A stretch of DNA of 54,755 bases from Nitrososphaerota archaeon (GTDB lineage: Archaea > Thermoproteota > Nitrososphaeria > Nitrososphaerales > Nitrosopumilaceae). The stretch spans positions 1 through 54,755 of the forward strand of contig VHBK01000005.1 of the NCBI GenBank assembly GCA_016872015.1. Direction: 5' to 3'. Shown here piece after piece: positions 15,897 to 20,929 of the stretch (positions within the stretch are counted from its first letter, which is position 1; each line of letters begins with the position of its first letter). Under the pieces are notes generated by a model. That model saw only the letters and a list, made by a program, of their open reading frames with translations, was not told the origin of the DNA and made no database searches. Position numbers and translations under genes: made by a program.

Positions 15897-16160
15897 ATGG
15901 CAAGAGCAATTGTATTAATGTCAATTTTGACTGTTTTAGTCATTTTACCAATGATACACCTAGTCTTTGCCGAGCCTGCGGAGGCAGGCCAATACATTAA
16001 TCGTAAGGCAGAGATCTGGAACCTCTTTTTCAAGATGATGACAATAGCATTTACTGTTGGTGCTGTGGTATCTGGCACACTCATTTGGGTTGTATGGCGA
16101 TTCAGAGAATCTCATCCTAAGGCTAAGCCGACAAAATACGAAGAAAAGGGTGAATGGTAA
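15897..16160 (+). CDS. Cytochrome c oxidase subunit II, N-terminal part (signal/TM plus TM1)
   Basis: Two hydrophobic segments ending in VVWRFRESHPKAKP like the COX2 TM1-TM2 loop; same frame as the downstream CuA ORF. Confidence 0.65.
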   Translation: MARAIVLMSILTVLVILPMIHLVFAEPAEAGQYINRKAEIWNLFFKMMTIAFTVGAVVSGTLIWVVWRFRESHPKAKPTKYEEKGEW

Positions 16161-16583
16161 ATGAGCGGACACTCTAACTGGCCTGAATGGATTTACGTGG
16201 CAGTAGTTATCTGTCTACTGACTTATGTTGGCGCAGAAGCATGGAACGTGGAGCGAATTGTAGAACATACTCCCGCTGAAGCCGAAGTGATAAAGGTTAC
16301 CGGACAACAGTGGTTTTGGACATTTGAACATGAAGATGGAACTAAAGAAGTAGGGGAATTGCACCTCAAAAAAGGAAAACCATACAAATTTGAAATCACA
16401 GCAAAAGACGTTAACCACTCGTTTAACATTCATGATTATGTTGTATTACAGGATGCCATTGTTGGAAGACTCAACACTGTTTGGTTTGCACCAGACAAGG
16501 CCGGAGAGTATACCATCCAATGTAGGGAATATTGCGGACTTTTGCACTATAACATGAGAGCAACTCTCTATGTGGAGGAATAA
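16161..16583 (+). CDS. Cytochrome c oxidase subunit II, CuA domain
   Basis: VTGQQWFWTFEHEDG and CREYCGLLHYNM CuA ligand motif. Confidence 0.92.
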   Translation: MSGHSNWPEWIYVAVVICLLTYVGAEAWNVERIVEHTPAEAEVIKVTGQQWFWTFEHEDGTKEVGELHLKKGKPYKFEITAKDVNHSFNIHDYVVLQDAIVGRLNTVWFAPDKAGEYTIQCREYCGLLHYNMRATLYVEE

Positions 16584-16630: not shown

Positions 16631-18157
16631 ATGGTACTTGAGCTGGCCAAACCACGCCCGATCTGGCAAATAATGTTTTCAACTCACCACACAGATGTCG
16701 GCCTCTTGTATACCATAATGTCAATCGCATTCTTCTTTTTGGGTGGAGCACTGGCTCTTGGAATTAGAGCAGAACTATTCTTGCCTGGAAGTCAAATAAT
16801 TGGTGATTCAATGACGTTTAACCGAATGTTTACTGTTCATGGCACTACCCTCATCTTCCTATTCTTGCTTCCTTTTGCATCTGCTGTTGGCAACTATTTT
16901 GTTCCAATTATGGTAAGATACAAAGACATGGCATATCCAAAACTAAATGCAATTGCATTCTGGATGATTCCTCCAGGAGGAGCACTGATCTGGCTTGGCT
17001 TTGCAGACTTTTCTTGGTACGCGACTCCTCCGTATTCTGCAATTAGTGCCCCAGGACCTGCTGCAGACATGTGGATTTTTGGTCTAAAGATTCTTGGTGT
17101 TTCATCCGTTCTCGGCTCTATCAATTTCGTAGTCACAATTCTAAAATGCAAGCATCCTGATCTACCACTAAGCAAAGTACCTTTACTGGCTTGGTCATTT
17201 TTGTCATCATCGTTGATTGTGCTTGTCGCAATTCCGTCTTTTGCCGCAGCCCTTGTTATGTTATTGACTGATAGGCTGGGGGTAACCGGATTCTTTGATC
17301 CTGCTAAAGGCGGAGATCCAATTGCATACCAACACTTGTTCTGGTTTACATTCCACCCTGAAGTGTATGTGTTAGTCATCCCTGCAATTGGAATGATGTA
17401 TGAGATAATTCCTAGATTTTCAAGAAGGCCAATATTTAGTCAATCATCTGGAATCTTTGCATTCGTTGTACTGAGTATAGTTGGGTTCTCATCATGGGCA
17501 CATCACATGTATGCCACTGGAATGTCATTTACGGAAAAGACAGTATTCATGGTTGGAACACTTGCAGCTGCGCCAGCATCTGCAATGCATGTATTCAACT
17601 TTATAGCCACAATGTGGGGTGCACGAATGCGATTCGCAACCCCAATGATGTGGTCAGTGGGCGGAATTGCGTTATTTTTCTCAGCAGGAGCAGGCGGTGT
17701 GGCAAATGCTGCAATGCCATTTGACTTTATCACGCATGACTCGTATTGGGTTGTAGGACACTTCCACCTGTTTGTGATGGGAACAATTGCCTTTGGCTCA
17801 ATTGGATTCCTGTACTACATGTTCCCATACATCACAGGAAGAATGTACAATGAGACAATGGGTAAGATTCACTTTATCATGTCATTTATTGGAACAGTCA
17901 TGGTCTTTTTCACACAACACGTGCTTGGGTTGTATGGAATGCCAAGAAGAGTTTTCGATTACATGCCGTTGCCAGAATACATTATAATGAACCAAATTAC
18001 ATCAGTAGGCGCAATGATAATTGGTGCAAGCATGGCTCTTTGGTTATTCAATATGTTGTATAGCTCTGCTAAAGGAAAGGAAGCAAACATGGATGATCCA
18101 TGGGGTCTTGGCGGCAAATACTATTACCCACACCAGGCAAAGACGCCACACCACTAG
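16631..18157 (+). CDS. Haem-copper oxidase subunit I
   Basis: 508-aa polytopic protein; TVHGTT, FWFTFHPEVYVLVIPAIGMM, SWAHHMYATGM, VGHFHLFVMG motifs. Confidence 0.97.
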   Translation: MVLELAKPRPIWQIMFSTHHTDVGLLYTIMSIAFFFLGGALALGIRAELFLPGSQIIGDSMTFNRMFTVHGTTLIFLFLLPFASAVGNYFVPIMVRYKDMAYPKLNAIAFWMIPPGGALIWLGFADFSWYATPPYSAISAPGPAADMWIFGLKILGVSSVLGSINFVVTILKCKHPDLPLSKVPLLAWSFLSSSLIVLVAIPSFAAALVMLLTDRLGVTGFFDPAKGGDPIAYQHLFWFTFHPEVYVLVIPAIGMMYEIIPRFSRRPIFSQSSGIFAFVVLSIVGFSSWAHHMYATGMSFTEKTVFMVGTLAAAPASAMHVFNFIATMWGARMRFATPMMWSVGGIALFFSAGAGGVANAAMPFDFITHDSYWVVGHFHLFVMGTIAFGSIGFLYYMFPYITGRMYNETMGKIHFIMSFIGTVMVFFTQHVLGLYGMPRRVFDYMPLPEYIIMNQITSVGAMIIGASMALWLFNMLYSSAKGKEANMDDPWGLGGKYYYPHQAKTPHH

Positions 18158-18167
18158 GAGTAGTATC

Positions 18168-19109
18168 ATGTCACACGAAACACCAATCTATAGGACGACG
18201 CCGGCAAGAACTGCAAAAATGATGGCAATCATGTGCGGTGTCTGCATTGCAGGTGGAGCATTGTTCTTTGCATTTTGGGATTACTGGATATCCATGCCGC
18301 CAGGAGTTCAAGCAGCAAGCGAAGATCATGCAGGACCTGCAGTTGCAAGTGGTAAGACAATACCGGTAACATTAGATTTTGTAGAATCATCTGACTTTAA
18401 ACAATTGGCGTTTAATGCACTACCTGGAGAGGAAGGTAACAATCCAACAATTCAAGCAAGCGTTGGTGACAAAGTAGAATTTACCATAGTGAACAAAGGA
18501 ATCTCATTCCATGCATTCGGTGTAACTCCAGCAACTGAAGGCTTTGGTGAGATTATATCTGGAACCGAGGTGGCAAGCATGAACAACCCACTAAAGCCAG
18601 GACAAAGCGGAACCTCATCATTTGTCCCAACTGAGGAAGGCACATTCTACTATATCTGTACCGTCCCAGGACACAGAGAAATGGGAATGGTAGGTGAAAT
18701 CACAGTAGGACCTAAAGGCGAGGCCCCAAAGGCAGCAGCCCCAACAGGCATTAGCCACACATTTGACCTTAATTTTGTAGAGTCTGCTGATTTTAAGACC
18801 CTAGCATTCAATGCACTACCTGGAGAGGAAGGACACAACCCAGAAATCAAGGTAAAGTCTGGTGATACTGTCACTGTAAAATCTGCCAACAATGGTATAT
18901 CCTTCCACTCATTTGGCGTAGTGTCAAATCCTGATGATGTAAATTCCATAGTGTTCAACTCTGCAATTGGCTCTATGAACAACCCAATCAAACCAAAAGA
19001 AGCAAAAGAGGTAACATTTACTGCAGGATCCCCGGGATCATATAGCTATATCTGTACAGTTCCAGGTCATGCGGCACTTGGAATGAAAGGCAATTTCATA
19101 GTAGAATAA
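18168..19109 (+). CDS. Membrane-anchored protein with two tandem cupredoxin domains
   Basis: Track ORF starts at 18021, but an in-frame ATG at 18168 follows coxA. Both repeats have SFHxFGV ... YICTVPGHxxxGM copper ligands. Confidence 0.9.
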   Translation: MSHETPIYRTTPARTAKMMAIMCGVCIAGGALFFAFWDYWISMPPGVQAASEDHAGPAVASGKTIPVTLDFVESSDFKQLAFNALPGEEGNNPTIQASVGDKVEFTIVNKGISFHAFGVTPATEGFGEIISGTEVASMNNPLKPGQSGTSSFVPTEEGTFYYICTVPGHREMGMVGEITVGPKGEAPKAAAPTGISHTFDLNFVESADFKTLAFNALPGEEGHNPEIKVKSGDTVTVKSANNGISFHSFGVVSNPDDVNSIVFNSAIGSMNNPIKPKEAKEVTFTAGSPGSYSYICTVPGHAALGMKGNFIVE

Positions 19110-19111
19110 TT

Positions 19112-19555
19112 TTGCGTCTTCAATACTTAGCCCTGGCATCTCTGATAGTTCTGTATTCTCTGATGTTTATCGGCGGATATGTTTCTGCATCAGGCCTTGG
19201 ATTATCATGTCCTGACTGGCCACTATGCCCAAATGGATTGCTGCCAGATGATGAGTTCTTCATAGAATGGGTTCATCGATTCATTGCAGCAACCACCGGC
19301 AGTCTGATAATAGCAACTACAGTCGGAGTTTGGCTAAACAAAAGGTCTGATGGAAAAATCAAGATAACATCAACTTTGGCAACAGTATTTGTCATTACAC
19401 AAATAACACTTGGCGCACTAGTCATAGAGGCAAAGCTGCACGCAGTCCTAGTTGCAATACATCTTGGCATTGGAATTTTGTTATTTGCAATGACTTTGCT
19501 TACTGCGATATTTGCATTCAGAATGGCAAGACAACAAGTAATCGCTAAAGTCTAG
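19112..19555 (+). CDS. ctaA: Half-length (compact archaeal type) haem A synthase CtaA/Cox15
   Basis: SGLGLSCPDWPLCPNG, EWVHRF and HLGIGI motifs; 4 TM, 147 aa. Confidence 0.82.
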   Translation: MRLQYLALASLIVLYSLMFIGGYVSASGLGLSCPDWPLCPNGLLPDDEFFIEWVHRFIAATTGSLIIATTVGVWLNKRSDGKIKITSTLATVFVITQITLGALVIEAKLHAVLVAIHLGIGILLFAMTLLTAIFAFRMARQQVIAKV

Positions 19556-20791: not shown

Positions 20792-20880
20792 GGGTCTGTG
20801 GCTCAGCCAGGTAGAGCGAAGGACTCTTAAAATTACTTGGAGACATCCTTATGTCGTGGGTTCGAATCCCACCAGACCCG
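20792..20880 (+). tRNA. tRNA-Lys (CTT) with 15-nt intron at 37/38
   Basis: GGGTCTG/CAGACCC acceptor, AAGGA/TCCTT anticodon stem, 22-nt loop CTCTTAAAATTACTTGGAGACA (7-nt loop + 15-nt intron), GTGGG TTCGAAT CCCAC T arm. Confidence 0.9.
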
Positions 20881-20929
20881 CTACTAAACCTGAAATTCAA
20901 AAATAGTTTTTTATTAAATCAGGATTTGC

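Follow-up and report, generated by a model that had tools for sequence, protein, structure and literature searches.

Cytochrome c oxidase subunit II of a Nitrosopumilaceae archaeon is predicted to be made as two chains, divided between its transmembrane helices

Introduction

Few components of aerobic respiration are as conserved as subunit II of cytochrome c oxidase (COX2), which is ordinarily a single polypeptide. At one locus of a Nitrosopumilaceae draft genome (GCA_016872015.1, 64 contigs), two adjoining open reading frames, each present in one copy in the assembly, lie in the same frame with a TAA stop codon as their sole separator and ATG directly behind it, an arrangement described in the initial annotation and confirmed here from coordinates and sequence. 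The locus raises the question of whether this stop codon interrupts one subunit II gene or divides two, and whether the first open reading frame belongs to subunit II at all. We analyzed the window, by which we mean the whole 54,755-nucleotide stretch of contig VHBK01000005.1, as one of 194 loci gathered from whole genomes and named contigs. The evidence assembled below indicates that subunit II is very probably split by nature into two separate chains, translated in turn from one message and assembling on subunit I as the usual hairpin.

Results

The gene pair and its neighborhood

Judged from its best named relatives, the genome of this ammonia-oxidizing archaeon groups with Ca. Nitrosotenuis-like Nitrosopumilaceae. 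The features of the locus are as follows.

15897..16160, plus strand: ORF1, the half of cytochrome c oxidase subunit II with the first transmembrane helix (TM1); 87 aa, C-terminus KGEW followed by TAA
16149..16153, plus strand: GGTGA, a weak Shine-Dalgarno-like sequence within the ORF1 coding sequence, 7 nt ahead of the ORF2 start
16158..16163, plus strand: junction TAA-ATG, the ORF1 stop followed by the ORF2 start; spacing 0 nt, one shared frame
16161..16583, plus strand: ORF2, the half of subunit II with the second transmembrane helix (TM2) and the CuA domain; 140 aa, beginning ATG AGC GGA (MSGHSNWPEW)
16631..18157, plus strand: subunit I (CtaD/CoxA), 508 aa; best match CtaD at 514 bits; HPEVY motif
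18168..19109, plus strand: membrane-anchored protein with two cupredoxin domains (PF00127, E 1.7e-16), downstream of subunit I
19112..19555, plus strand: short COX15/CtaA-like heme A synthase, 147 aa (PF02628, E 3e-19)

Residues 1-25 of ORF1 form a hydrophobic, signal-peptide-like N-terminal segment ending in LVFA; in an AlphaFold2 model TM1 occupies residues 36-70 and the other ORF1 helix residues 2-23, and a second possible ORF1 start is the ATG at 15918. ORF2 comprises the TM2 helix (approximately 16179-16265) and the CuA cupredoxin domain (approximately 16278-16580; PF00116, E 1.8e-16). We take the HPEVY motif of the adjoining subunit I to place it in the A-type class.

Further downstream, the two cupredoxin domains of the protein at 18168-19109 are alike and lie in tandem, a VESxDFKxLAFNALPGEEG-like stretch being present twice, and from sequence the arrangement looks like an internal duplication; this protein is possibly an electron donor. 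The CtaA/COX15-like protein, at 147 aa, covers about half of the length of the Pfam model. At 20792-20881, ARAGORN calls a 90-nt tRNA-Phe with anticodon AAA, which is long and has an anticodon unusual for Phe; an intron or a misplaced anticodon is possible.

Distribution of the split

A one-helix CuA protein with a separate adjoining ORF1 homologue is encoded at 163 of the 194 loci, and the 162 of these besides the window include an isolate of the window's genus. The split loci span families coded f1 (Nitrosopumilaceae, a name taken from the named contigs), f2, f3 and f57 (which we infer to be the other ammonia-oxidizer families), f12, f16, f47, f59 and f60. Subunit II is split in every ammonia-oxidizer-type locus recovered, and a TM1-half gene adjoins the CuA gene at each one-helix CuA locus recovered, on the upstream side in the 163 and on the downstream side in a further family, f21. 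Subunit I is encoded after these genes, on the same strand, in 160 of the 163, and two of the remaining loci are near a contig end. One-piece COX2 was found at 28 loci from other families, some of them within the same order, while four genomes (G071, G170, G182 and G438; loci L122-L124, L127, L140, L141, L158 and L159) carry two different oxidase clusters, with subunit II in one piece on one and split on the other.

Measured against the same-genus loci L002 and L004, both halves are under purifying selection, with dN/dS of approximately 0.04-0.07 for ORF1 and 0.025 for ORF2, ratios that are rough because dS is high and near saturation.

Two individual loci have unusual open frames. In the CuA ORF of L173 (G353, a single contig), an in-frame TAA replaces a Gln codon of the relatives and leaves 94 aa open around the CuA domain, which is either an error or a real truncation. 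At L194 (G383), no stop interrupts the ORF1 frame over a further 471 codons upstream, in a GC-rich stretch.

Spacing of the halves and their translation

With the ORF2 start picked by script as the one nearest the ORF1 stop, which makes exact spacings lean short and leaves the frame relation unaffected, the 150 distinct junctions have spacings from -17 to +9 nt plus one of 109 nt, and 160 of the 163 loci fall within -8 to +10 nt. Spacing in this range has been treated as predictive for termination-reinitiation (PMC10666635), so the distribution fits translational coupling by that route. Shine-Dalgarno-like matches of at least 4 nt precede ORF2 in 88% of loci versus 62% of shuffles, and those of at least 5 nt show no clear excess (25% of loci versus 20% of shuffles).

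These observations suggest a route by which the two chains may be produced. A single message would carry both genes, and ORF1 followed by ORF2 would be translated as distinct chains, initiation at ORF2 being carried out by the ribosome that has just finished ORF1 or by another that binds locally, perhaps with the aid of the weak Shine-Dalgarno-like site within the end of ORF1. TM1 would come from the first chain, together with a signal or membrane segment at its N-terminus; the second would contribute TM2 and the CuA domain, where electrons enter. Both would assemble on subunit I, where the two helices would pack as the COX2 hairpin without a covalent cytoplasmic loop; because the cut falls in this short loop, topology and the CuA site are expected to be unchanged. 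We infer co-transcription, reinitiation, assembly and the absence of a fused product in this strain, the one-message and assembly steps from gene order and the COX2 fold. A complexome analysis of Nitrososphaera viennensis assigns CoxB a single predicted transmembrane helix (PMC10030591).

An alternative that differs in the translation step only, and that we regard as unlikely, is that ORF2 of the two-chain pair is initiated independently from its own ribosome site. The GGTGA placed 7 nt upstream of ORF2 in the window would suit such initiation, as would the same-genus relative L003 (G221), which keeps AAAAAGGTGA...TAAATG ahead of ORF2 despite the 109 nt that separate the ORF1 stop from the ORF2 start; set against these are the coupling-typical spacing of all but three of the split loci and the weakness of the Shine-Dalgarno enrichment. 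The retained stretch of L003 resembles the end of ORF1, as if local start signals had been kept or duplicated.

Identity of the two halves

The initial annotation assigned TM1 to ORF1 and TM2 plus the CuA domain to ORF2, with the cut in the TM1-TM2 loop of COX2, and each of these assignments is upheld. ORF1 matches the NCBIfam CoxB model at positions 8-52 (E 8e-5) and ORF2 at positions 61-191 (E 5e-28); thus the pair is collinear with one COX2, and reading through the stop codon yields a single CoxB alignment (residues 39-226 to model positions 8-191, 120.9 bits). The two-helix anchor is supplied by the pair, as neither ORF has both TM1 and TM2, and CuA-type subunit II is here encoded by two ORFs rather than as a single continuous polypeptide. 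In joined-protein numbering, H174, C209, E211, C213, H217 and M220 are invariant across 34 loci, a set of residues that fits a complete CuA site; with these ligands intact, ordinary electron entry is expected.

ORF1 alone is harder to place. Its scores in Pfam and NCBIfam lie under the curated cut-offs, the COX2_TM score of only 12.6 bits means that Pfam by itself does not identify it, and a single-sequence PDB search gave a weak match to 2yev_B (E 0.92); a PF02790 search in four archaeal genomes returned zero matches. The lack of any curated family above threshold, together with the extra N-terminal hydrophobic segment, would also suit a small membrane protein, subunit or assembly factor, unrelated to COX2 and upstream of ORF2 by chance, an outcome named in the initial annotation as one that would overturn its reading. 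We consider this very unlikely. A profile of ammonia-oxidizer ORF1 sequences matches TM1 of one-piece archaeal COX2 with a probability of 92-94% (E 1e-7 to 6e-7), and the match is specific, since TM2, the whole twelve-helix subunit I and the reversed ORF1 profile, used as controls, each gave less than 2%. The CoxB and 2yev_B matches are weak yet correctly placed, and a chance neighbor is difficult to reconcile with the presence of such an ORF at every one-helix CuA locus recovered.

The joined protein is also predicted to fold as COX2. In an AlphaFold2 model of the read-through sequence, made with an alignment restricted to split loci (pLDDT 79, pTM 0.65), the best PDB matches are COX2 chains and span both helices and the CuA domain, being nearly full length against 2yev_B (E 1e-15) and Rhodobacter sphaeroides COX2 (TMq 0.67); this is support rather than proof, because a joined chain is biased toward a hairpin and confidence is low for the N-terminal segment. 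On profile match, neighborhood and joined model, we reject the unrelated-subunit reading of ORF1.

The reading frame across the stop codon

The shared frame of the window had suggested, as a second option beside termination-reinitiation, that stop readthrough makes a fused subunit. With one frame and a single stop, the window sequence is compatible with rare readthrough, and 36 of the 150 distinct junctions are in frame; this number is not above the third expected if the frame were free, and the other 114 are out of frame. The window's arrangement is local. TAA or TAG directly followed by ATG occurs at the same place in L002, L004, L005, L007, L031, L035, L036 and L037, and the isolate Ca. Nitrosotenuis chungbukensis MY2 (L033) likewise has a stop and then ATG at this position, but spacing 0 is found in only 27 of the 150 distinct split loci, and in the wider set the in-frame stop-ATG arrangement is not kept. 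Even the window's genus combines in-frame TAA or TAG plus ATG with a -1 overlap (L006) and the 109-nt gap of L003, and closely related named contigs have overlaps of -4 (L032) and -1 (L034), all three overlaps being out of frame. Where junctions are in frame, both TAA and TAG are seen, with the start codon kept right behind, and in f21 the order of the genes is swapped. Programmed readthrough is rejected, as the frame across the stop is not conserved, and we regard the production of a fused COX2 by readthrough in this species as highly unlikely. The out-of-frame junctions, the spacer in L003 and the reversed order in f21 indicate that the halves are independent polypeptides, the stop codon being an ordinary boundary between genes, and, with the short spacings, support the termination-reinitiation option.

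That COX2 is truly continuous here, the stop being a sequencing error or the mark of a decaying pseudogene, has practically no chance of being correct: a one-base error is a general possibility in a draft assembly, but the comparison of orthologous loci proposed at the outset refutes it, as the eight close relatives and MY2 have a stop and then a start in the same place without any continuous COX2, and selection on both ORFs is strongly purifying.

Reversed order in f21 and the resemblance to SoxH and SoxI

All 10 f21 genomes examined have the CuA half first and the TM1 half after it, the latter matched at E 1e-15 to 1e-20 by a profile built without f21 genomes. The CuA protein measures 147-173 aa from stop to stop and is followed by an ORF of 150-167 aa, the first part of which carries the TM1-half match. 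At L147, genes for a Rieske protein and cytochrome b lie upstream of the CuA gene, and L149 has the same layout as judged from ORF length and sequence. By its gene content, f21 appears to resemble Sulfolobales with a SoxFGHI-type operon, and the names SoxH and SoxI were given to its genes on the strength of this resemblance (Rieske, cytochrome b, CuA protein, then the SoxI-like ORF). A profile of ORF1 from families other than ammonia oxidizers aligns with the SoxI-like ORFs at 98.7% (hhalign, E 2e-16), whereas direct comparison of the ammonia-oxidizer ORF1 is weak (18%), so that the link between these two passes through the intermediate families.

Phylogeny of split and one-piece oxidases

A tree of archaeal CuA domains separates 24 one-piece rows from all split and f21 rows on a branch with support 100/99, and the subunit I tree, in which f21 is not included, agrees with this separation. 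When six bacterial A-type rows and one haloarchaeal row are present without B-type rows, the split rows remain on one side of the subunit I tree with modest support (88/61). Adding B-type rows as outgroup places the window subunit I apart from the two B-type rows (100/100) and resolves the split rows into two basal lineages, while the bacterial, haloarchaeal and archaeal one-piece forms are nested together as a single clade, weakly supported (86/58 and 90/76); a single split clade is not rejected (AU p 0.20). With long branches and an unsure root, one change, in either direction on both subunit I and CuA trees with bacterial and B-type rows, would be enough to separate split from one-piece oxidases. 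Taken together, the sequences indicate that A-type subunit II has an old and conserved split, unusual in its position and shared with distant archaea. It is unlikely that the split is ancestral among A-type oxidases and that the two-helix COX2 of bacteria and mitochondria arose from one fusion of a TM1 peptide with a one-helix CuA subunit; were this so, the account of COX2 origin would change.

Discussion

The window pair shares with one-piece A-type COX2/CoxB, such as that of Thermus caa3 (2yev_B) or Rhodobacter sphaeroides, TM1, TM2, the CuA domain with full ligands and a position adjoining subunit I. It differs in consisting of two polypeptides without a covalent TM1-TM2 loop and in the extra hydrophobic N-terminal segment of the first. 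Split mitochondrial cox2a/cox2b genes are known from chlorophycean algae, alveolates and the wasp Campsomeris/Dielis (PMC5374615), and there too two complementary genes encode COX2, which is assembled as a heterodimer. However, the eukaryotic genes are cut after TM2, in the intermembrane-space domain and at one shared position (PMC5374615), whereas the window pair is cut between TM1 and TM2, and we regard the archaeal and eukaryotic splits as presumably separate in origin.

Similar in layout is the Thermus ba3 oxidase, of the B-type, in which a one-helix CuA subunit II is accompanied by a small one-helix peptide, IIa, at the TM1 site, its helix inverted relative to TM1 (PMC3141039). The likeness to the window pair is one of layout, in the one-helix CuA subunit and the separate small peptide, and ba3 has a B-type subunit I, unlike the window subunit I with its CtaD match and HPEVY motif. 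On a Thermus plasmid (L203), a 49-aa hypothetical ORF at 2037-2186 immediately precedes the gene for ba3 subunit II; this ORF probably encodes IIa, in which case the layout would parallel that of ORF1 and ORF2.

SoxH and SoxI of the Sulfolobales SoxM oxidase (soxEFGHIM) likewise combine a one-helix CuA subunit with a separate TM1-half homologue, the first approximately 70 residues of the SoxI-like protein being homologous to the TM1 half. Unlike the window pair, they have the reverse order, and the TM1 half has about two additional helices. Within open-licence full texts, to which the older Sulfolobus SoxM literature does not belong, no paper was found that names the neighboring gene as the TM1 half, and searches for N. 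maritimus locus tags and for SoxI together with SoxH and SoxM gave no matches.

A stable split across ammonia-oxidizing archaea and several other Thermoproteota families implies that the covalent link between TM1 and TM2 is dispensable. It provides a likely function for small ORFs that fall under annotation thresholds and, via homology, for SoxI-like proteins. The split also offers a marker by which archaeal A-type oxidases can be sorted into two groups, and it poses a concrete question for structural studies of archaeal oxidases.
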